The notes under the pieces: model-generated | The model's input: the letters and a program-made list of their open reading frames with translations, nothing else | Told to the model about the DNA's origin: nothing | Databases searched by the model: none | Translations under genes and position numbers: made by a program | In this document: positions 1 to 61,141 of the stretch, one piece after another | How positions within the stretch are numbered: position 1 is the stretch's first letter | Layout: each line of letters begins with the position of its first letter | Origin: a virus | DNA length: 64,000 nt | Virus record (IMG/VR): IMGVR_UViG_3300044797_000098 | Location: 1 to 64,000 of that record | Reading direction: 5' to 3' (one strand)

Positions 1-40
1 GTCAATTACCCCGACATAAATGTTCGGGGCTTGTTGCTCG
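1..40 (-). mobile_element. IS200/IS605-type right-end hairpin
   Basis: The minus strand reads CCCCGA-loop-TCGGGG (9-29) followed by TAATTGA. The third tnpB copy (37340-37361) ends in the same way, and the second (3817-3836) has a related hairpin. The last tnpB codons and the stop lie in this terminus, as is usual where the 3' end of tnpB overlaps the element's right end and guide-RNA scaffold. Confidence 0.75.
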
Positions 41-1190
41 TCCTGCGTTTAGCAGGATGTTGTTTTTGAACGGCAACAATAGGCTCATTGACAAGAGCCC
101 AAGATAGAACGGTTGTTATACCGTTCAAAAGATTGATTGCGGATACTGCACGGTTTTTGATATTGATTGAGGCATTGACGTCTGCGTTTGTGGCGAAGCC
201 ACATTGCAGGCAAAGAAAATCGCTCTGCGATTTTCGATTACCCTTTTCACAATGTCCGCAGTTGCTACACGTTCTGCTTGTATTACGAGGATCAACGAGT
301 GCTACTGGAACACCTGCTATCTGCGCCTTGTAAAGTATGAACTGCATCAGTTGATTGAATGCCCACTTACCGTGCTTGTCTCTATCCTTTTTTCTAACCG
401 TTTTCTTGAAAGATTGCAAATCTTCGATTGCAATTCCAACATTGTGCCTTTTCGCTTCCGAGACAACCCGTTTGCTTATGATATGATTCGTGTTTCTCTT
501 GAATTTTCCTTCCTTGTTAGATATTCGTTTGAGATGACGTTTTGCGGACTTCGTTCCGCGAGACTGTAATCGTTTGCGTAAATTATGATATCGTTGTCTG
601 ACTGTTTCTACTTCGTTGCCTACGAACTTGACACCGTTGTCCAGCGTGGCTAAATTGACAATACCAGAATCCATACCGATAAAATCGGTTGGCAGATATT
701 GTTCTGCTTCTGGAACTTCGACTACGGCTTGTAGAAAAAAATTACCATTATTGAAAACTAATGTAGCACCGTTTCTAATCTTTCTATTGTATAAGTTTGC
801 ATATGTTCCGAAAGCGATTGGTATCTTTTTCAATCTTCTATTGATAGAAGATATGGAAATCATATCAAGGTTCTTGCCGAAGGCAAGAACCCTTGCATCA
901 AAATCGATTGATGAGTGTTTTTGGAAACGATGTTGAACGGTCTTGTCGTTTTTATATGTTGCTGAAACGCGTGCTATTGCACGGATTACAAATTGAGATG
1001 GTAGAGATGGAAACTGTTTGCGAACTTGATGATAGATTGCCTTTTGCAGTTTGAATTTAGAAAAACAACGATTAGCAAAAGCATATTCCGAGATCGAATT
1101 ACAAGTAGAATTGAACACATACATCGTGTTCAATAACGATTGTTTTTCGTTTGCAGAAACTATTAGTTTGACTGGAACGGTTAGCAACAT
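6..1190 (-). CDS. tnpB: TnpB (IS200/IS605 OrfB) RNA-guided endonuclease
   Basis: The 394-residue protein has the TnpB layout: N-terminal WED/REC-like part, RuvC-I aspartate in FIGMDSG, RuvC-II glutamate in AIEDLQS, a zinc ribbon (CSNCG and CLQCG) and the RuvC-III aspartate in the NADVNAS motif. TnpB is an obligate RNA-guided DNA nuclease that helps its transposon persist. No tnpA Y1 transposase lies nearby, so any mobility would need TnpA in trans. It diverges clearly from the other two copies, which resemble each other. All expected catalytic residues are present, so it looks intact. Confidence 0.93.
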   Translation of the reverse strand: MLLTVPVKLIVSANEKQSLLNTMYVFNSTCNSISEYAFANRCFSKFKLQKAIYHQVRKQFPSLPSQFVIRAIARVSATYKNDKTVQHRFQKHSSIDFDARVLAFGKNLDMISISSINRRLKKIPIAFGTYANLYNRKIRNGATLVFNNGNFFLQAVVEVPEAEQYLPTDFIGMDSGIVNLATLDNGVKFVGNEVETVRQRYHNLRKRLQSRGTKSAKRHLKRISNKEGKFKRNTNHIISKRVVSEAKRHNVGIAIEDLQSFKKTVRKKDRDKHGKWAFNQLMQFILYKAQIAGVPVALVDPRNTSRTCSNCGHCEKGNRKSQSDFLCLQCGFATNADVNASINIKNRAVSAINLLNGITTVLSWALVNEPIVAVQKQHPAKRRTSNKPRTFMSG

Positions 1191-2639: not shown

Positions 2640-2673
2640 CTCCGTGAATTATTTTTGTGTTGCATACGATTTT

Positions 2674-2702
2674 TCTCAACTTTCTACTACTAATGATATA
2701 TA
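2674..2702 (+). promoter_or_regulatory. Probable promoter of tnpB copy 2
   Basis: TATATA ends 8 nt before the ATG and is preceded by TTTCTACTACTA, which is also present before copy 3. The -35 (TCTCAA) is degenerate, so this promoter should be weaker than those of the other copies. Confidence 0.5.
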
Positions 2703-2710
2703 TACTTACG

Positions 2711-3829
2711 ATGCGAAGAACTTTTTCTTTCTATATGCTTGCTCCAAACGGATTTTTAGACTATCTAAAAACTTGTTCGGATATTTTTACTCGTCATGTG
2801 GAATGGGCATTTTCTAATAAATCTACTAATAAGGTTCAAGCACACAAAGACTTGTATCAAGTTATTCGTTCCGAATATCCAAACATACCTTCCAACATTT
2901 TACAAGCAACACGAGATCAAGCATTGGAAGCAGTTAGAAGATTGAAGTTCAAAATCAAACCTAAAAAGAAACCACATTCAGCGGTTAGATACGATGCCAG
3001 AACAATTACTCTTCGCGGTAATCTTTTGACTTTTTCGTGGTCAGGCAAACGAATTAGAACACTAATCAATTTACCACAACATTTTCAACAATACAAAAAT
3101 TGGAAGATGCAATCAGGAACTATTGGTTATGACAAGGTCAAAAAGCAACTAAAAATTAGCCTTATTTTTGAGGCACCAGATACGATACCTATTCAAAACT
3201 CAACAAGAATAGTAGGCGTAGATCGCGGATTATATAATATCGTCTCGTTGTCAGACGGTCAATTGTATAATGCGCGAACGGTAAGAAAAAAGAAACGCGA
3301 GTTTCTTTATACGAAACGACAACTCCAAGCAAAAGGCACTCGATCTGCTAAACGAAAACTAAAAGCAAGATCAGGTCGAGAAAAGCGGTTCAGCACGGAT
3401 ACCAATCATGTAATTAGTAAATGGTTAGTAAATCAGTCATATGATACATTCGTTTTTGAAGACTTGAAAAACATTAGCAAGCAACGCAAAGGCAAGGTAT
3501 TGAATGGATGGCTTTCTAACTGGACATTTTTTCAATTAGAACAATTCGTTTTGTATAAAGCATCAACATTAGGCAAACAGGTTGTCAAGGTAGATGCAAG
3601 ATATACAAGTCAAAAATGCTCTAATTGTGGAATTGTTGAAAAATCTAATCGCAATAAATCAAGATATTGTTGCAGTAAATGCGGATATATAGAACACGCT
3701 GATATCAATGCTGCAAAAAATATCAAGATGAATTATACTCTCTCGTTAGCAGTAATGAATAACGAGCAGGCACCAGTCAATGTGCCATATGTGTCGATAG
3801 CAATATTAGATACAAGCCCTTGCCTTTAG
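2711..3829 (+). CDS. tnpB: TnpB (IS200/IS605 OrfB), copy 2
   Basis: Start set at 2711 by alignment with copy 3 (MRRTFSF against MQRTISI); the reading frame is open further upstream. Of 372 residues, RuvC-I is in VGVDRG, RuvC-II in FEDLKN, the zinc ribbon is CSNCG/CSKCG, and RuvC-III is in HADINAAKN. The TAG stop lies inside the right-end hairpin. Closest relative here is the 36 kb copy, which carries an extra 24-residue insert. Confidence 0.93.
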   Translation: MRRTFSFYMLAPNGFLDYLKTCSDIFTRHVEWAFSNKSTNKVQAHKDLYQVIRSEYPNIPSNILQATRDQALEAVRRLKFKIKPKKKPHSAVRYDARTITLRGNLLTFSWSGKRIRTLINLPQHFQQYKNWKMQSGTIGYDKVKKQLKISLIFEAPDTIPIQNSTRIVGVDRGLYNIVSLSDGQLYNARTVRKKKREFLYTKRQLQAKGTRSAKRKLKARSGREKRFSTDTNHVISKWLVNQSYDTFVFEDLKNISKQRKGKVLNGWLSNWTFFQLEQFVLYKASTLGKQVVKVDARYTSQKCSNCGIVEKSNRNKSRYCCSKCGYIEHADINAAKNIKMNYTLSLAVMNNEQAPVNVPYVSIAILDTSPCL

Positions 3830-12605: not shown

Positions 12606-14402
12606 CTATGCGACTTCCATAAGGGTTTCCTCATTGCGAGCACCCTCGGGGGTTTTGGCGTCGCCTGACCGCTCGCGCTCAAGTCCGCGGTCAAGGATAT
12701 TGTTTGATGCATTCTCATCTCGATCATGTTCAACACCACAACCTTGACAAAAATACTTCAACATACCTTTGATATCATCATTGTAATAATGACATATTCC
12801 GCATTCTTTTGAAGTGCCACGAGCATCAACTTCGATATATCCTTCTGTCTTTCCTCTGCTACGCAATGCGTTCTTACACGCATTACGAAACTCACTTGGT
12901 GCAGTCAGTTGCCTATTAGTGCTTCCAGCATTACCTCGTGCAAGGTTAGACAGATTGATGTCCTCGAAAACAATCGAACCGTATTGATCAGCAAGTTTTG
13001 CTGCCAACTTACGATACTCTTCGTTTCGATATCCAACTCCGCGATTGCGTTGCGAAGAAGCCCACTGCCATAGATGGTGATCATGATATCTCCATCCCGC
13101 AATACCAGTTCCTTTTGTTAGTGTTTTCGTTTCTTTATTCCACGAACCACTAATACCATAAATCTCTTCATCTCCCGCAAAACGATTGGTTGACCATTGT
13201 TTCACCAATCTTGCAAGACGACCTTGCGATCTCCACTTATCCAAGTGTTCACATTCTTTCGTGAGCCATTCGGGCAAGTTTTCTTTTCCAGTCATCCATT
13301 CAACTAATGATTTACGAACAGCATCGAACTCCTTATCTCGAATGCTTTCGATTTCGTTAGCCTTTGATAGTGCTGCAATGACACTTGATGGGACACGAAT
13401 ATCCCATTCCTTATTATCAGTTCCTTTACCATATCCAATGCGAACCGATCCGTCTTGCATATCGCGCCAACCAAGATCAATACCAACGCACGATTGATTG
13501 TTGTGTGCAATTGTATTTTGATTGTCATTGAACGTAATAGACACCGTCCAATGTTCTCGTGCTCCAATCTTATTGCAACATACCTGTACAACCTGAATAA
13601 CGCTTCCAGTAGGAATATCACGATGATATACCATTGGAAACTCTGCCCAGATAGGCTTACGATCATTGTCGGTTCCAATACGGAGACGGAACAATCGCAA
13701 GTCTTTCTTACCAACCTTACGCATCGTTCCATCTACCTTTACAATTGGAGCAGGCATAGGAATGATCCGAACCATCTTGCTTGATGCTTCAATGCCAATG
13801 ACCTTATCAATAGGTTCATTGGGTTGAAACTGCTGAATACCAACACGACCTTCACCAAGATATGAACGGAAACGAGGATCATTCGGTTCAACACCATCAT
13901 ACAATGGCATCTTACGAGTTTTCTGAAACGCATCCTCAATCAACATATACGTTCCATACCACGGAGCAATATCACTCTTGCGAACCTCTGCAATCTTTAG
14001 GTTCGCTTGCTGATCAATAGCAGTTCGTTTTGCTTTGATATCCTCATTGCTACGAAGCAATCTGCGTGCTTCAATAAGTTTCGAGTTGATTTCTTTGCGA
14101 GCCTTCTTTGCATCCCTCAGTTCTTGCTTCATCTCATCGGTTGCAACGCGAGTGCGAGCATCCGCATTAGCTCGTTTGTTCCTCTTGTCGAACGCAATAA
14201 CCTTATCATCCGCTTCCTTTACTGCGACTTCCAGTTCAGGAATATCACCTGCTTGTCGTTCAATGGTTCGGATTTCATTTCTCCTCCATCGTTCAATCTC
14301 AATAAGTTTGTTTTGGTAATTGTGTCCCTTTCTAATCTGCTCCATAACAAGATCATGGTTCAGTGTGGGTGCCAGAAGTCCTAACTTGAAGGTGCGTGTC
14401 AT
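12606..14402 (-). CDS. cas12: Compact type V CRISPR effector (Cas12m/V-U-like)
   Basis: 598 residues. N-terminal WED/REC region with a long charged coiled coil (about 30-140), then a conserved-looking RF..YLGEGRVGIQ segment (178-190). The RuvC domain follows: D309 in GIDLG, E480 in FEDINL, a zinc ribbon (C534/C537, C552/C555) and D562 in the RDENAS motif. All three catalytic carboxylates are present, so the RuvC site looks intact. Length and layout fit Cas12m or other V-U effectors better than TnpB (about 400 aa) or the larger CasPhi; subtype is uncertain. It reads in the same direction as the array and has its own promoter. Confidence 0.88.
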   Translation of the reverse strand: MTRTFKLGLLAPTLNHDLVMEQIRKGHNYQNKLIEIERWRRNEIRTIERQAGDIPELEVAVKEADDKVIAFDKRNKRANADARTRVATDEMKQELRDAKKARKEINSKLIEARRLLRSNEDIKAKRTAIDQQANLKIAEVRKSDIAPWYGTYMLIEDAFQKTRKMPLYDGVEPNDPRFRSYLGEGRVGIQQFQPNEPIDKVIGIEASSKMVRIIPMPAPIVKVDGTMRKVGKKDLRLFRLRIGTDNDRKPIWAEFPMVYHRDIPTGSVIQVVQVCCNKIGAREHWTVSITFNDNQNTIAHNNQSCVGIDLGWRDMQDGSVRIGYGKGTDNKEWDIRVPSSVIAALSKANEIESIRDKEFDAVRKSLVEWMTGKENLPEWLTKECEHLDKWRSQGRLARLVKQWSTNRFAGDEEIYGISGSWNKETKTLTKGTGIAGWRYHDHHLWQWASSQRNRGVGYRNEEYRKLAAKLADQYGSIVFEDINLSNLARGNAGSTNRQLTAPSEFRNACKNALRSRGKTEGYIEVDARGTSKECGICHYYNDDIKGMLKYFCQGCGVEHDRDENASNNILDRGLERERSGDAKTPEGARNEETLMEVA

Positions 14403-36155: not shown

Positions 36156-37364
36156 ATGCAACGAACGATCTCTATCAAAATTGACGCACCAGCAGAGTTT
36201 TTAGATTACCTAAAAGCTTGCAACGAGCTATACAGCAGGTATGTTGAATGGTGTTTCGAGACCAAGAGCTACAATAAGAATAAATCTCATACCGAGCTAT
36301 ATGAAAAGTTTCGTCAGGAGTTTCCAAGTATCAATTCTGCCACCATTCAGTGTATTAGAGATAATGCACTTGAAAGCGTCAAGGCATTGAAATTCAAATT
36401 CAAGCCGAAAAAGAAGCCACATTCTCATATTCGTTTTGATAAGAGAACGATCGCTCTTCGAGGTGATCAACTATCGTTTGCATGGTCAGGTGATCGTATC
36501 AAACAGATCATAAAGATACCAGAGTTTTTCAAAAAACGATATGGATCTTGGAAGTTTCAGGCAGCAACAATAGGCTATAATAAGCATAAGAAGCAATTCG
36601 TTGCTAATCTGATTTTTCAATCAACTGCTCCGCAGGAGCTTCGCTCTTCTGCTCCGCAGGAGCTTCGCTCTTCTGCTCCGCAGGAGCTTCGCTCTTCTTC
36701 ACCTGAAAAGAAAGGTGATCGTGTAGTTGGTATCGATCGTGGACTGTATAACATAGTGTCTCTATCTGATGGTTTCAAGTATGCTTCCAATCAGGTCAGA
36801 AAAGTGAAACGAGAAGTCTTGTTTCTCAAAAAGCAACTTCAAACAAAAGGCACCCATAGTGCTAAACGCAAATTGAAAGCGTTGTCTTGCTATGAGAAGC
36901 GGTTTAGTTTGAATGTCAATCATATCATCAGTAAATTGTTAGTTTCGTTGCCATACGATATTTTTGTTCTCGAAGACTTGAAAGGTATTCGTAAGCAAAA
37001 ATCAAAAGGCAAACGACTAAACAAGTGGCTTGCTAACTGGTCATTTTGGCAATTAGAGGCTCTTCTGGGATATAAGGCAGAGATATTTTGCAAGCAAATT
37101 GTCAAAGTCGATGCTCGATATACCAGTCAAAAGTGCTGCAATTGCGGTCAAGTAGAAAAAGCCAATCGTGATGGCTCACATTACCACTGTGAGCGTTGTG
37201 GATTTAGGTGTCATTCGGATACGAATGCTGCTAAAAATATCCGCAATAACTATCTCATCTCTGCTGCTGAAAAACAGAAGGCAGAGCAGGCTATGTGTCA
37301 ATTAGCCGAATGCTTCGTATCGAAAGATACAGAAACAAGCCCCGTTGCTTTTAGCACGGGGTAA
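36156..37364 (+). CDS. tnpB: TnpB (IS200/IS605 OrfB), copy 3, with repeat insert
   Basis: 402 residues, close to copy 2. RuvC-I in VGIDRG, RuvC-II in LEDLKG, zinc ribbon CCNCG/CERCG, RuvC-III in HSDTNAAKN. Three tandem units of the 24-nt repeat (36625-36698) add 24 in-frame residues, APQELRSS three times, just before RuvC-I; copy 2 has a short linker there. Catalytic residues are retained, so the insert may be tolerated. Confidence 0.93.
   Translation: MQRTISIKIDAPAEFLDYLKACNELYSRYVEWCFETKSYNKNKSHTELYEKFRQEFPSINSATIQCIRDNALESVKALKFKFKPKKKPHSHIRFDKRTIALRGDQLSFAWSGDRIKQIIKIPEFFKKRYGSWKFQAATIGYNKHKKQFVANLIFQSTAPQELRSSAPQELRSSAPQELRSSSPEKKGDRVVGIDRGLYNIVSLSDGFKYASNQVRKVKREVLFLKKQLQTKGTHSAKRKLKALSCYEKRFSLNVNHIISKLLVSLPYDIFVLEDLKGIRKQKSKGKRLNKWLANWSFWQLEALLGYKAEIFCKQIVKVDARYTSQKCCNCGQVEKANRDGSHYHCERCGFRCHSDTNAAKNIRNNYLISAAEKQKAEQAMCQLAECFVSKDTETSPVAFSTG
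36625..36698. repeat. 24-nt palindromic repeat, three tandem copies
   Basis: Units at 36627-36650, 36651-36674 and 36675-36698, identical to the copies at 6.7-7.4 kb. Confidence 0.92.
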
Positions 37365-41813: not shown

Positions 41814-41830
41814 GTGCAATTCCTCCTGAG

Positions 41831-41884
41831 GTTTCAATCCCCACGACAATACCTCATGTGAGATATTGTCATAGACACGGAAAC
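41831..41884 (-). repeat. 54-nt intercistronic hairpin repeat, copy 1
   Basis: On the minus strand GTTTC...GAAAC flanks a long stem, GACAATATCTCA/TGAGGTATTGTC. It lies upstream of the methyltransferase-like gene. The second copy (44414-44467) differs at only a few positions. Confidence 0.75.
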
Positions 41885-44374: not shown

Positions 44375-44413
44375 TGGTATGTGTGTCCTTGTATGTTGTT
44401 CGTTGTATATTGG

Positions 44414-44467
44414 GTTTCAATACCCACGACAATACCTCACATGAGATATTGTCATAGAGACGGAAAC
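44414..44467 (-). repeat. 54-nt intercistronic hairpin repeat, copy 2
   Basis: Same structure as 41831-41884; located between 44475-44714 and 43973-44374. Confidence 0.75.
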
Positions 44468-45662: not shown

Positions 45663-46211
45663 TTAGAGCGTGACGGGGATGGTAATGTGCGACACCGCCT
45701 TCCGTGCGATTGACCGACCGTCAATCTTGAACCCTAGATCCTGTAGTTTTTTCACCTGCACGGCAGTATTGCTCGTTTCGAGAATACCTTGTAGGTCATT
45801 CACCGACACCTTGATACTCGAATCGAAGGCACCCATACGCGCCTTCAAGCTCGCAGAAAGACCGTCATACTCCGCCTTTTCCTTACGAAGTGCAATGATG
45901 TGGGTTTCGAGCACAACGTTGAGTGCTTGTCGCACCTTCTGCTCGGCTTCATTCTTCGCGCGTTGCTGTACCGTTGCAAGTGCGTTGATTGCCCGCACAC
46001 ACACCGTCCCGATGTCGTCGAATGTAAGCTTGTCGAACGATGGGTTAAGATTGCCACCTTTCCCCGCATCCCAGCACAAGGCATGCAATGCGCGGAAGTG
46101 TGCGGTAATCTCCGCGATCTGCTCACCGTTGAACTGTTTCGGCGCTTTCTTTTCTTCCTTTTCGGCAGAGGGAACGACAGTGGCAACCGTGGTGGTATTG
46201 TTCGTGGTCAT
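45663..46211 (-). CDS. Hypothetical protein (182 aa)
   Basis: ATG at 46211 (AGGAG upstream). Thr-rich N-terminus, lysine/glutamate-rich helices, possible coiled coil (about 85-125). No family recognised. Confidence 0.6.
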   Translation of the reverse strand: MTTNNTTTVATVVPSAEKEEKKAPKQFNGEQIAEITAHFRALHALCWDAGKGGNLNPSFDKLTFDDIGTVCVRAINALATVQQRAKNEAEQKVRQALNVVLETHIIALRKEKAEYDGLSASLKARMGAFDSSIKVSVNDLQGILETSNTAVQVKKLQDLGFKIDGRSIARKAVSHITIPVTL

Positions 46212-46311
46212 GTGAGTGTATCTCCTATGTTGTGTTGTTTGACTTTCGAGCTTATTGCCCGACAATGTATGCAAGACTATGATCTTACACACATTAGCAG
46301 ACACTCAAGCC

Positions 46312-46500
46312 TTACAGGATGAAGTTCTTTTCAGTGTATTCTTTCGTCTTAGCTCGTTTCCCGCTAAGTCTCTTGGTAGCCTTGCTGCTCATTCCTACCC
46401 TATGCGTCATATGGTAGCGGATATCCCGTATCTGCTTACTTGTGAGCGTTTTGCACTTATCGCATAGACAATTGCTTGATTGTAGGATTAGACACTTCAT
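46312..46500 (-). CDS. Small basic Cys protein (62 aa)
   Basis: CLCDKC near the N-terminus and a basic tail. The start overlaps the region of the upstream stop. Confidence 0.55.
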   Translation of the reverse strand: MKCLILQSSNCLCDKCKTLTSKQIRDIRYHMTHRVGMSSKATKRLSGKRAKTKEYTEKNFIL

Positions 46501-46629
46501 TCATCCACCCTTGTGCAGCCATCGGCTACTTGTAAACGTATGCCGTAGTTTCTTGCTCGGGCGCACACCACCTTTCCAGTGTGCTACATGTGCTCTCTTG
46601 AAGGTTAGCCGTTTCTTCTTTATCACCAT
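46501..46629 (-). CDS. Very basic small protein (42 aa)
   Basis: GAGGAG lies 7 nt before the ATG. MVIKKKRLTFKRAH...RPSKKLRHTF is rich in Lys/Arg/His, like a small ribosomal or RNA-binding protein. First gene downstream of the structured region. Confidence 0.5.
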   Translation of the reverse strand: MVIKKKRLTFKRAHVAHWKGGVRPSKKLRHTFTSSRWLHKGG

Positions 46630-46639
46630 TCCCGATCTC

Positions 46640-47340
46640 CTCAGTGTGCGCCTAACGCACATACCGCCCTAACAGTGTTAGGAGCGGTTTCGATCTTGCC
46701 GACATTGTTAGCGTCTAGCCGGTATAGGCTACTTGTGATAGCCGTATGGTATAGTATTAGATTGTGGTATTATCTGCTTTCTTTGCACTCGCGCCTAGCG
46801 TTTCTTACTTCCCTATCTCGTCGCGCTTTGGCTTACAATATCACTTTCCGCTATCAGAGCCGATAATGTAGTCTAGTTGCTTCCCTTGGGAATACAACGA
46901 CAACATTGTGGCATAAGCGGGGACCATGTAAGACAATCGCCGAACCGTAGAATTAACCTTCTAGGTGCGATATGTCGTATCGTTAGAATAGAGACTGTCT
47001 ACTAGGTACACTTCCGATATTAGCGACTTTGCCTTACCTATCTTACCTACAGCGACTAGACCTTACAAGGTCATACCCCAAGGGGTATTGGTCGGCACTG
47101 TAGCGGGATAAGGCTTTCAGACTGCTTGCCAGTCTTCGCCCTGCTAAAACGGGTATTCCGTCGTATGCTCTACCTTAGGCGACATGTGGCAGACCCACAC
47201 CGTTCTAAGGTTTCTAACGCTAGTGTAGGAGCTACCTACTTGTTCCGTTTCCCCACTAGCTACTGCGGGGTGCTATCTAGAGAGAACGGCGGGCGGTTGA
47301 ATTACTTTAGGCCTCGCGGGGCTTTTTTCTTCGCCCCTAC
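46640..47340. ncRNA. Candidate large structured RNA
   Basis: About 700 nt without a credible gene and full of perfect stems: ACCGC.CCTAAC/GTTAGG.GCGGT (46662-46687), GTTG.TTCCC/GGGAA.CAAC, CGATA/TATCG, CTACAG/CTGTAG enclosing CGAC/GTCG and two hairpins (GACCT/AGGTC, ATACCCC/GGGGTAT), AGACTG/CAGTCT, ACCTTAG/CTAAGGT and GCTAGTG/CACTAGC. Near 47308-47331 a GC-rich stem is followed by TTTTTT on the plus strand, a possible terminator. Strand not settled. Confidence 0.55.
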
Positions 47341-48480
47341 CGTTCCGCTCTCGACAGATAGACTATATTGCAGACGTTGTGCCATGGCATATGGATCGGA
47401 TAAGTATATGATATTATTGATGTAGGGAAAAGACTTAGTATGATCTTGCTGTCTCGGTTTTAAGAAAAACCAATGAGATCATAACGTTGGACGATCATAG
47501 GGTATGCAAAGATTGCGGTGTGATAATGTGGGATAGTGTTGCTTCGGTCTAGGAAGCGTTCGGAGCGCTCGGGATATCTCGGCAAGGGTAGCAGGGGGAA
47601 AACGCTTCCTAGCTGGCACCTAGCGCCAGCAAACGGCAATGCTCGAAGGCAGGGTGCGGGCGCTCGACGTTGGCTGGAATGTAGTTGCTGGTAGGGAGCT
47701 CCGTCAGGATGTAGTACAATGTAGGGAAAGGTGGGTGGTTCCGTTCTTGCAATGATGCACAAGTTATGCCAAGTCGACGGCTCGTTTCTTGCAATAGGTT
47801 CAGGTGGGATAACGGAATACATACGATACAGACTTCCCTACATACTGAACGGTTGGCACTGGCTGAACCGTTGAACGTATAGTGTAGGGTGAGCAGTGTC
47901 GTATGTAGGAGATCAGTGGATGATGTAGTATGATTGTTGCGAGGTCAAGTATAGGTCAAGTGCTTATCACGTATTGGTCAACAACAACTCACTGATAACG
48001 CAATGTAGGATAACAGGAGAGATGTAGCCGTCTCAACACCATTGGATTACCTGAACAAGATGTAGGAGAATAGGGAGAAAGGTAGGTAGAGGTAGGGAGG
48101 AATTACAGCGATACGGTTGGCACGGTTCTTGGGGGTTGGCGGGAAAGGTAGCCAGAGGTGGGATGAATGCTGACAGGGGAAAGGTGGGATGATGTGAGAT
48201 GTTCAGGTGGTGTGATGTAGGGGAGACGGGGAGATGTGGCAGCTTGGTGCCTAGTGTAGGGGGAACGCAGGGCGTATAGCCGGAGTAGCGGGTTGGAAGA
48301 CAATGTATGATATGTAGTGAAAAGAAAGGAAATGTAGTGGAATGTAGAATGATGTAATAGTTGTAAAGAAGTGGAATGAAATGGAGGGAAAGGTGGGAGA
48401 CGGTGGGAGGAATGGAGGGGATGTGGTGAGGTATCGCGTAAGGTGTGGCGGTGTGGGGTAATGTGGGCCTCGTTAAATAA
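47341..48480. other. Gene-free TGTAG(G)-rich region
   Basis: No believable gene: the minus-strand ORFs are Pro/His/Ser-rich translations of a G-rich plus strand. The plus strand has more than 15 TGTAG words, many as GATGTAGG or AATGTAGG. Possible origin, packaging or recombination site. Confidence 0.4.
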
Positions 48481-48617
48481 TAGAACGGTACCAAAACGAA
48501 TCAATACAATACTATCAAACGGTAGCAAACAATATAAAACAAAATAATCTGAATACAACATCAAACAATAGCAACAATTAATAATAACCAATAAAACGGT
48601 TGTAATAAATATAACAA
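48481..48617. other. AT-rich intergenic region
   Basis: Composition changes abruptly here from G-rich to A/T-rich. No gene seen. Confidence 0.4.
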
Positions 48618-56412: not shown

Positions 56413-56928
56413 ATGAACGAAATTAAAGATCCTCATCCAACATTTAAATTCGCATTGAGAGAAGATTTGAAAAATGACAAAAGATTTTTACCAACCAGAT
56501 CAACCCCGGTAAGTACCGGCTGGGATGTTTGTTGCGCGCAAGAAAATAGAAAACAAATTATTCTCAGACCCGGACAATTTGTAAAGATCCCATTGGGATT
56601 TAGAATGATAGCACCAGAAGGATGGTGGCTGCAACTAGCACCAAGGTCATCAACATTCGCTAAAAAATCATTACATTGTTTATATGGAGTATTAGACAAT
56701 GATTGGATGGGATACACCGCGCTAGCAGCACAATATATACCAGATGTTAATTCATTAGGTAAAGATCTAAAATTAGAGTTCGGGGAACCTATCGGACAAC
56801 TAATACCGTTCGAACTAAAAAATATGAATGTAGATCAAATTGATAACGAACAATTTGAGGAAATGATGAAAAATAAAAAAAGTGTGAGAGGGGTTCAGGG
56901 ATTTGGTGAAACACGAGGATTAAAATAA
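56413..56928 (+). CDS. dut: dUTPase
   Basis: Motifs: STGWD, PRSST, GVLDNDWMGY and a C-terminal GVQGFGETRG arm match trimeric dUTPases, which hydrolyse dUTP to dUMP. 171 residues is near usual length. AGGAA precedes the ATG. First gene of the nucleotide cassette. Confidence 0.9.
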   Translation: MNEIKDPHPTFKFALREDLKNDKRFLPTRSTPVSTGWDVCCAQENRKQIILRPGQFVKIPLGFRMIAPEGWWLQLAPRSSTFAKKSLHCLYGVLDNDWMGYTALAAQYIPDVNSLGKDLKLEFGEPIGQLIPFELKNMNVDQIDNEQFEEMMKNKKSVRGVQGFGETRGLK

Positions 56929-59248: not shown

Positions 59249-60271
59249 ATGAGATTTGAAGAAACGTTAACTTTTAATGATGTTCTAATAAAACCCTCCT
59301 ACAGTGAAATACGAAGTCGTTCAGAAATAGATTTATCCATAAATCTATCAAAAGGACTTAATTTTTCTATTCCGATATTTCCAGCAAATATGAAAACCAT
59401 AGTCAATCTGCAAGTTGCGGAAGAGTTTTACAAACTCGGTGGTATGTGTTTGCTACATAGATTTTGTTCGATAGATGAACAGATAAGTATATTGAAAACA
59501 TTAAATGGTAAATACAAAGATGTTTTTGATTATATTGGAGTATCTGTTGGAGTAAAAGAAGAAGATTATAAAAATATAAAAATATTTTATGATCTCGGCG
59601 TTAGAATAATTTGTATTGATGTAGCACACGGGCATTCAAAAAATTGTACTGATATGACAACATTTATTGCTAATAATTTTTCTGATGTATTTTTGATTGC
59701 AGGAAATGTTGCTACTGGACAGGGAGCGTTTGATTTATGGAACGCTGGAGCTGACGCATGTAAAATTAATGTTGGCGCTGGTAGCATTTGTACAACAAGG
59801 ATTCAAGCAGGTGTCGGAGTACCACAACTATCTGCTTTAATAGATGTATATGAGACACGAAATTATCATCCGATTTTTCATGATAAGTTTATAATTGCGG
59901 ATGGCGGTTGTTCAAAAGTTGGTGATTTGGTTAAAAGTTTATGTTTTTCCGATATGGTAATGACAGGCAATATGTTTGCTGGGGTTCCAGAATCATCAGG
60001 TGAAATAATTGAAATTGATGGTAAAAAATATAAACAGTACGACGGAAGCTCAACACATAAATCAGATTATATCGAAGGGGTTAAAGCAATGGTTCCATTA
60101 AAAGATAATATAAAAAATATAGTGAAAACTATGATGGAAGGTATATCAAGTGGTTGCTCATACGTTGGTGCTCGCTCACTAAATGAATTAAAAACAAATG
60201 CTGAGTTTATAAAAATAACGAACGCCAGTATTGTAGAGAGCCATGCACATGATGTGGTGATAAGATGTTAG
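59249..60271 (+). CDS. guaC: GMP reductase/IMP dehydrogenase family enzyme
   Basis: 340 residues, no CBS domains, so nearer to GMP reductase in length. LTFNDVLIKP at the start, NVATGQGA and GSICTTRIQAGVGVPQLSA with the catalytic cysteine. GMP reductase converts GMP to IMP with NADPH. IMP dehydrogenase without CBS is the alternative. Confidence 0.85.
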   Translation: MRFEETLTFNDVLIKPSYSEIRSRSEIDLSINLSKGLNFSIPIFPANMKTIVNLQVAEEFYKLGGMCLLHRFCSIDEQISILKTLNGKYKDVFDYIGVSVGVKEEDYKNIKIFYDLGVRIICIDVAHGHSKNCTDMTTFIANNFSDVFLIAGNVATGQGAFDLWNAGADACKINVGAGSICTTRIQAGVGVPQLSALIDVYETRNYHPIFHDKFIIADGGCSKVGDLVKSLCFSDMVMTGNMFAGVPESSGEIIEIDGKKYKQYDGSSTHKSDYIEGVKAMVPLKDNIKNIVKTMMEGISSGCSYVGARSLNELKTNAEFIKITNASIVESHAHDVVIRC

Positions 60272-60534
60272 AGTTTTTATTTGAAAATTATTTAGTTTGT
60301 TTTCCAGCGGATGTATCATATAAAACATATGACGATAAATATTGCTATGGTATAAAGTTTGCGGACAATAATGATAGTTATGAATTGATACATAACAGAG
60401 AAGTAAATTGGAGTAGGATTTATGTTACAAAAAATAATGTTATTAAAGATATTCCATTTAAAGAATCAGCATTTGGCGTGTTACCCGGCTTTATAATATT
60501 AACATCAATAGAGGAACAGAATGCACGAAAATAA
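60265..60534 (+). CDS. Hypothetical protein (89 aa)
   Basis: Overlaps both GMP reductase and ThyX. A short alpha/beta protein, no family recognised. Confidence 0.6.
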   Translation: MLEFLFENYLVCFPADVSYKTYDDKYCYGIKFADNNDSYELIHNREVNWSRIYVTKNNVIKDIPFKESAFGVLPGFIILTSIEEQNARK

Positions 60535-61141
60535 GGTAGAATTAATTGGAACATACGGCGGTGACGAGACGCATGCACTAAGTGCTTGGACTTCAACATC
60601 GAGAGATTTGACGGATGAGAAGCGCGGTAGGATGGGAAAATTGTTAAAGATGTTAGGAGATGATGGTCATGGAACTCCGTTCGAAAAGTCATCGTTGCAT
60701 TTCTTAGTTACTACCGAAATTGCCACACATATACAAATAATAAAACATAGGATTGGTGTTAGTTTCAATGGCGAGAGCGCGCGATACAAAGAATTAAAAG
60801 ATGACAAGTTCTACATACCAAGAGACTGGATGCCAGAGGAACAGGCATTATTAATTGAACATTGTGAGGAATCAATTCGTAGGTATCATGAATGTTTAGC
60901 TAGATTAGTATCAGCTGGCGTACCAAAAAAAAGAGCAAAAGAGAGTGCGCGTTTTTATTTACCTTACGCTAATCAAATAACAGCTGATGTAATGTTCAAT
61001 TTTAGAAGTTTCATGCATTTTATGCAATTAAGAAATAGCGAACATGCTCAATTAGAAATTAGAGAAATTGCACAAAAAATGTTAGAATTGATAAAAGAAA
61101 CAGGAAAATTTAATCTTTCATTAGAAGCATTTGGTTACTAA
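60521..61141 (+). CDS. thyX: Flavin-dependent thymidylate synthase
   Basis: The ThyX signature appears as KHRIGVSFNGESARY (usual RHRxxSxNExSxRY, with K for the first R and GVS spacing). PFEKSSLHFLVT, and RSFMHFMQLRNSEHAQ near the end, are also conserved. Makes dTMP from dUMP with FAD and methylene-THF. GAGGAA precedes the ATG. Confidence 0.88.
   Translation: MHENKVELIGTYGGDETHALSAWTSTSRDLTDEKRGRMGKLLKMLGDDGHGTPFEKSSLHFLVTTEIATHIQIIKHRIGVSFNGESARYKELKDDKFYIPRDWMPEEQALLIEHCEESIRRYHECLARLVSAGVPKKRAKESARFYLPYANQITADVMFNFRSFMHFMQLRNSEHAQLEIREIAQKMLELIKETGKFNLSLEAFGY

Follow-up and report, generated by a model that had tools for sequence, protein, structure and literature searches.

Does a stretch of about 700 nt without any credible gene encode a functional RNA and, if so, from which strand and for what use? 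The question was raised by an earlier note on this DNA, drawn from the letters alone, which proposed a large structured RNA at 46640-47340. To our knowledge, bacteria and their phages have yielded very few RNAs of such a size whose secondary structure is conserved. The window analysed here is a stretch of 64,000 nucleotides that corresponds to the first 64 kb of the IMG/VR record IMGVR_UViG_3300044797_000098 (G000; 406,470 bases). This record encodes a phage-type terminase large subunit and is apparently a very large phage. Unless stated otherwise, positions are those of the window.

Locus and coding potential

The locus is a gap without credible open frames, flanked by minus-strand genes that end at about 46.2 kb on one side and others that begin at about 48.6 kb on the other. 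From 46642 to 47300, every frame contains 10-17 stops in 219 codons (TAG 5-13 and TAA 1-7 per frame over the six frames), and the longest ORFs overlapping the region comprise 63-99 aa. The absence of coding potential claimed previously is therefore borne out. Coding under a recoded stop was ruled out, both TAG and TAA being present in all frames. The position proposed in the earlier note was accurate to a few bases, the conserved element extending from 46641 to 47344. No second copy of the RNA was found in the whole 406-kb record.

The word CTAG is common at about 40-200 kb of the G000 record and nearly absent from 0-20 kb and from 200-406 kb, and its highest density in the record lies within the RNA (9 in 700 nt). 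This distribution suggests a mosaic history or a different restriction pressure.

Homologues and probable exchange of the RNA block

IMG/VR was scanned with exact patterns from conserved stretches, with neighbour proteins, with the helicase and with the terminase. Two relatives carry the element at the equivalent position, namely IMGVR_UViG_3300031251_000004 (G001; 101,913 bases; loci L002/L003) and IMGVR_UViG_3300035696_000012 (G002; 133,216 bases; loci L005/L007). Besides chance matches, the exact patterns recovered only these two records, while one scan with a neighbour protein recovered G001 and another scan recovered both. The helicase gave no match in IMG/VR. The terminase recovered relatives at 43-88%, and the RNA was absent from those whose whole records were searched, most of these relatives being fragments. 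A scan of genome contigs gave 10 matches, none of them with the RNA. By BLASTN, the window element had no match in the INPHARED phages, the PLSDB plasmids or the complete E. coli genomes, and the G002 version (E up to 10, phages and plasmids) gave chance matches only. The comparison is based on three sequences, of which effectively two are independent, and all of them are of metagenomic origin (fragments or metagenomic assembly).

The RNA comprises 704 nt in the window, 702 nt in G001 and 706 nt in G002. Its identity to the window is 96.6% in G001 and 81.2% in G002, the latter being 77% identical over the wider region. The minus-strand ORF1 and ORF2 and the gene at 45663-46211, downstream of the RNA, are syntenic in the three phages, and upstream of the RNA both relatives contain a noncoding purine-rich stretch, as does the window. 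From about 46250 to 47300 (RNA, ORF1 and ORF2), the window hardly differs from G001, whereas the other genes of the two reach only about 74% identity, which suggests that the block formed by the RNA and the two ORFs was recently exchanged as a unit. As a consequence, G001 provides little independent evidence and the argument is carried by G002.

Conservation of the secondary structure

Folding of the single sequence in 200-nt windows is unremarkable against chance on both strands, and the 701-nt region folds with z-scores of -3.1 (plus) and -3.8 (minus), obtained from just 20 shuffles per strand. Such single-sequence folds are weak evidence, and the proof of structure is comparative. For the whole element, MAFFT alignment without tuning gave folding z-scores of -7.8 (minus) and -6.5 (plus) against column-shuffled alignments. 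In the core of the untouched alignment (47015-47180, 165 nt), all 51 pairs are kept in the three sequences, none being broken, and 14 of them are changed on both sides. Not one shuffle in 500 matched any of these values, and 0-1 double changes remained when the partner was slid by 1-3 columns. Over the whole RNA, in the minus reading, we observe 34 double-changed pairs distributed in 14 helices in which no pair is broken. These whole-RNA counts lean towards structure, because the variable hairpins of the 5' third were realigned by hand on the helices; neither the untouched core nor the whole-element MAFFT alignment is subject to that effect. The hand-edited alignment (z = -13.5), being structure-biased, was kept out of the testing.

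The comparison of the three phages shows a noncoding element of about 704 nt, of near-constant length, whose secondary structure has been maintained in evolution (Table 1). The large structured RNA proposed at the outset is thus confirmed by covariation in homologues, the very check that had been suggested for it, and its stems are conserved in both relatives. The four stems originally quoted (CTACAG/CTGTAG, CGAC/GTCG, GACCT/AGGTC and ATACCCC/GGGGTAT) were all found at 47046-47102. Two of them are changed on both sides in G002, where GACCU/AGGUC is replaced by UCCCU/AGGGA and AUACCC/GGGUAU by AGGAUC/GAUCCU.

Table 1. Positions of the RNA, its parts and the adjoining features in the window (sequences of G001 and G002 are given where they differ).
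Feature	Position	Strand	Remarks
Conserved structured RNA, about 704 nt	46641..47344	-	5' end at 47344; homologues and covariation
5' hairpin, A-rich loop (the 'U-rich GC hairpin' of the earlier note)	47318..47337	-	GGGGC(GAAGAAAAAA)GCCCC; GGAAG/CUUCC in G001, GAGGC/GCCUC in G002; 4 of 5 pairs double-changed
Second 5' hairpin with GCGA segment	47289..47317	-	Two pairs double-changed and no pair broken
Hairpin A, CCCCG/UGGGG, loop CAGUAGCUAG	47251..47270	-	Stem GGCGCG/CGCGCC in G002
Hairpin B, GUAGG/CCUAC, loop UAGCU (47230-47234)	47225..47239	-	Candidate kissing half
Two-part hairpin, ACCUUAG/CUAAGGU, inner UGUGG/CCACA	47172..47211	-	Covariation; nearly all re-sequenced in G002, still paired (GCUUGCCG/CGGUAAGC, inner CGCU/AGCG)
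Core domain, nested multi-branch	47020..47147	-	Includes the stems at 47046-47102 and hairpin 47119-47135; pair counts in text
Long-range helix CCGCU/AGCGG	46848..46920	-	2 double changes; CCACC/GGUGG in G002
Two 3' hairpins before ribosome-binding site	46641..46700	-	Strongly conserved; one stem rearranged in G002, pairing kept
Candidate promoter	47362..47390	-	Consensus scan; conservation by eye only
ORF1, 42 aa	46501..46629	-	ATG preceded by GAGGAG (46637-46642)
ORF2, 62 aa, basic, CxxC pair	46312..46500	-	Frame kept in relatives

A candidate kissing-loop contact

All pairs of unpaired stretches were scanned for a five-base complementarity kept in the window and in G002 through changes. The single match concerns the loops of the neighbouring hairpins A and B. 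The segment AGCUA of loop A (47257-47261) faces UAGCU of loop B in the window and in G001, and these become GACAG and CUGUC in G002, four of the five pairs being double-changed. When the G002 letters were shuffled within the loops, at least three double changes were obtained in 9 of 300 shuffles and at least four in 7 of 300. With one independent comparison and about 2-3% by shuffling, this contact is a good candidate for a kissing loop.

Genes behind the RNA and its possible role

On the minus strand, the 3' end of the element meets the Shine-Dalgarno sequence GAGGAG of ORF1 in all three phages, and the start codon of ORF1 is located 12 nt past the last base of the element. No terminator was found between the RNA and ORF1. 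The ORF1 product contains 13 K+R and no acidic residue; its frame is kept in G001 and G002, with 9 synonymous and 6 non-synonymous changes relative to G002 in the 38 codons compared. The ORF2 product contains 15 K+R and 4 D+E. The differences between ORF2 and its G002 counterpart, counted by codon position, are 14/13/34, and this concentration at third positions indicates a real gene. For neither ORF did Pfam, PHROGs or NCBIfam give a family above threshold, ORF2 having one sub-threshold Pfam match only, and ORF1 had no match in the PDB. The conserved 182-aa gene that follows on the minus strand (45663-46211) has no family above threshold either, and over its 5' leader (46225-46304) the window and G001 agree at every position. 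The candidate promoter reads ATGCCA-17-TATAGT in the window, where it is weaker, and TTGGCA-16/17-CCTAAT in G001 and G002, as judged by eye; matches of this kind do not in themselves indicate function. The transcript probably starts a few bases upstream of 47344, and a functional minus-strand transcript running from near 47344-47355 into ORF1 and ORF2 is strongly supported.

The explanation that we favour, and regard as reasonably probable, is a phage RNA of a new family that works as such. It would be the first element of a small, leftward-transcribed operon that includes ORF1 and ORF2, and would fold into a compact multi-domain object partly held by loop-loop (kissing) contacts. This object could be a scaffold, a homo-multimer like the cages of GOLLD and ROOL, or a ribonucleoprotein formed with the basic ORF1 and ORF2 products encoded behind it, and it would act during infection, beyond the mere regulation of these genes. 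An RNA working as such is favoured because nearly the whole 704 nt are kept in structure and length, because the loop-loop contact covaries and because the block was apparently exchanged as a unit. The structure is established by the comparison, whereas the function is what we infer from it.

Since no terminator precedes ORF1, the RNA may be only a leader, which is the alternative that survives best. A very long cis-acting 5' leader on the minus strand would act on the genes that follow. It could hide or uncover the ribosome-binding site of ORF1, mediate autoregulation through the basic ORF1 protein, or alter RNA polymerase in such a way that terminators are read through, as in put and EAR elements. 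The junction of the RNA with the Shine-Dalgarno sequence in all three phages is in line with such a role, as are the neighbouring genes, which mostly run in the same direction down to about 41 kb, and a conserved CUCUCU near the 5' end, whose complementarity to the conserved GAGA of the ribosome-binding site was noticed by eye and does not covary. However, put and EAR elements, like most leaders, are several times smaller than 704 nt. Furthermore, nearly the whole RNA is kept in structure and length, beyond what a switch region would cover, and no covariation of an alternative structure was seen. We consider a leader possible, although rather doubtful.

Strand of the RNA

An RNA working as such and a leader would both belong to the minus strand. 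As most helices fit either strand, this assignment rests on the G-U pairs, the loops and the context, which make the minus strand very probable. No pair of the covarying helices is broken on the minus strand, whereas three are broken on the plus strand, each of them being G-U on the minus. The hairpin at 47172-47211 is continuous on the minus strand only, where one pair is G-U. On the minus reading only, hairpin A is closed by G-U in the window and by G-C in G001. In the 47145-47160 region, the basal pair of GACGG/CCGUU passes from G-U to A-U by a one-sided change, which is also compatible with the minus strand only. The consensus energies are -57.2 (minus) against -55.9 (plus) for the untouched core and -233.6 against -226.7 for the hand-edited whole alignment. 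Finally, 45% of the unpaired bases are A on the minus strand, which corresponds to 45% U on the plus strand.

The first reading of this DNA, in which a U-rich GC hairpin closes the RNA, corresponds to a noncoding RNA of the plus strand that would end in an intrinsic terminator at 47309-47330. The dual fit of most helices, a plus fold that is nearly as good, a terminator-like match on the plus strand at 47309-47324 and a T-run present in the three phages are all consistent with it. The sequence of the supposed terminator is indeed present, but it is not a terminator: its T-run forms the loop of a covarying hairpin with conserved sequence on both sides, and terminator-like matches are no commoner than shuffling gives (2 against an expected 2.3). 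The three pairs broken on the plus strand, the energies, the A-rich loops of the minus reading and the position before ORF1 favour the minus strand, so that the plus-strand RNA is improbable.

Surroundings of the locus

The 1.2 kb upstream of the RNA (47345-48600) are noncoding and purine-rich, contain repeated words of the GTAGG/ATGTAG type and long imperfect inverted repeats (47818-47842/47883-47907 and 48028-48057/48200-48229), and are recognisably conserved in G001 and G002. At about 48.5 kb, the composition breaks sharply, with a GC content of 42-49% on the left and of 24-35% on the right for about 10 kb. An assembly chimera was ruled out, since the synteny across this break is kept in G001 and G002, and for the same reason the break is taken as a real mosaic border.

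A noncoding, repeat-containing and conserved neighbourhood (47.35-48.6 kb) next to a composition break would suit an element acting at the DNA level, such as a replication origin or a packaging site whose hairpins act in single-stranded DNA. Nevertheless, G-U pairs such as those on the minus strand imply an RNA, and the fold displays an RNA-like complexity with A-rich loops. A replication origin was rejected on GC skew, which has no minimum at the locus in the whole record. We regard a DNA element as very improbable. That no functional RNA exists at all, the stems arising by chance or from a degenerate or recoded gene, would agree with the ordinary 200-nt folding z-scores but is contradicted by the double-sided compensatory changes and by the stops in all six frames, and its probability is negligible.

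Other features were observed in the window. A repeat of 55 nt, 93% identical between its copies, is found at 41830-41884 and 44413-44467, each copy having an internal palindrome ACAATACCTCACATGAGATATTGT. The two copies are located directly upstream of, or overlap, small minus-strand genes and are possibly a shared regulatory hairpin. Four TnpB/Cas12f-like genes (PF07282) are present at 6-1190 (minus), 2657-3829 (plus), 12606-14402 (minus) and 36156-37364 (plus); one of them encodes 598 aa with no recognised OrfB_IS605 domain. Nucleotide-metabolism genes are found on the plus strand at 59249-60271, 60521-61141 and 56413-56928 (IMP dehydrogenase/GMP reductase domain, flavin-dependent thymidylate synthase, dUTPase). 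The closest thymidylate synthase in INPHARED (56%) belongs to a Caudoviricetes phage from Manatee Spring that is otherwise unclassified.

Comparison with known structured RNAs

GOLLD and ROOL form RNA cages, and their function is still unknown. OLE is found in the chromosomes of Gram-positive bacteria, and usual riboswitches are far smaller than 704 nt. The Rfam models were searched with cmscan on both strands, and no match was obtained with the window (gathering threshold), with the region 46200-48200 (E up to 5) or with the G002 homologue (E up to 10), the covariance models of GOLLD, ROOL, OLE and HEARO included. The earlier failure to match a family thus holds, and the search proposed at that time with these four models detected no relationship, a resemblance in kind remaining. 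The element shares the general traits of 'ornate' RNAs, being noncoding, longer than 400 nt and endowed with a covarying multi-branch structure. The association with tRNAs that had been evoked for such RNAs does not apply here, as the 406-kb record contains two tRNAs (1488-1562 in the window and about 372.8 kb in the record), both far from the RNA. A tRNA-like array was rejected on the same grounds.

GOLLD is a phage-encoded RNA of complex structure, often above 800 nt and of unknown function (PMC12286853). Both GOLLD and ROOL are built by kissing loops, with A-minor contacts in GOLLD (PMC12286853). The RNA described here resembles GOLLD in its large size, phage origin, complex structure and candidate kissing loops. 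It differs in having no Rfam match and in its location directly before two small genes and away from both tRNAs, whereas GOLLD is often near phage tRNA islands. ROOL (Rumen-Originating, Ornate, Large) is a multi-branch RNA of phages and prophages for which a purely RNA-based function has been proposed (PMC12286853). The likeness to ROOL is that of a large, multi-branch phage RNA, and the difference lies in the distinct helices, the lack of a tRNA island and the lack of an Rfam match. The covarying loop-loop pair of the present RNA, with 2-3% of shuffles being comparable, is a candidate that may or may not correspond to the contact of ROOL. OLE, an intricately folded RNA of about 600 nt, functions in a ribonucleoprotein together with small proteins (PMC9723947). 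The present RNA is likewise large and intricate, with small basic proteins encoded alongside; on the other hand, it has no Rfam match to OLE and its neighbours have no assigned OapA/B/C-like family. The lambdoid put RNA, the EAR RNA and the autoregulatory leaders of ribosomal-protein type are also structured RNAs heading an operon, but they are far smaller and have no sequence match with this RNA.

More tentatively, the element may represent a new RNA class unrelated in sequence to GOLLD and ROOL, which would assemble through kissing loops, during infection by large phages, into a particle of RNA alone or of RNA and protein. Its dedicated basic partners would be encoded just behind it, and phages would exchange the whole set as a cassette. 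An independent family, if such it is, could be used to test the roles of particle, of protein-partnered RNA and of controller of downstream genes against each other, the candidate partners being encoded next door. The RNA has no match among described families but recalls GOLLD and ROOL by its size, its origin in a phage and, probably, its kissing loops. It therefore probably represents a new family within the 'ornate large RNAs'.
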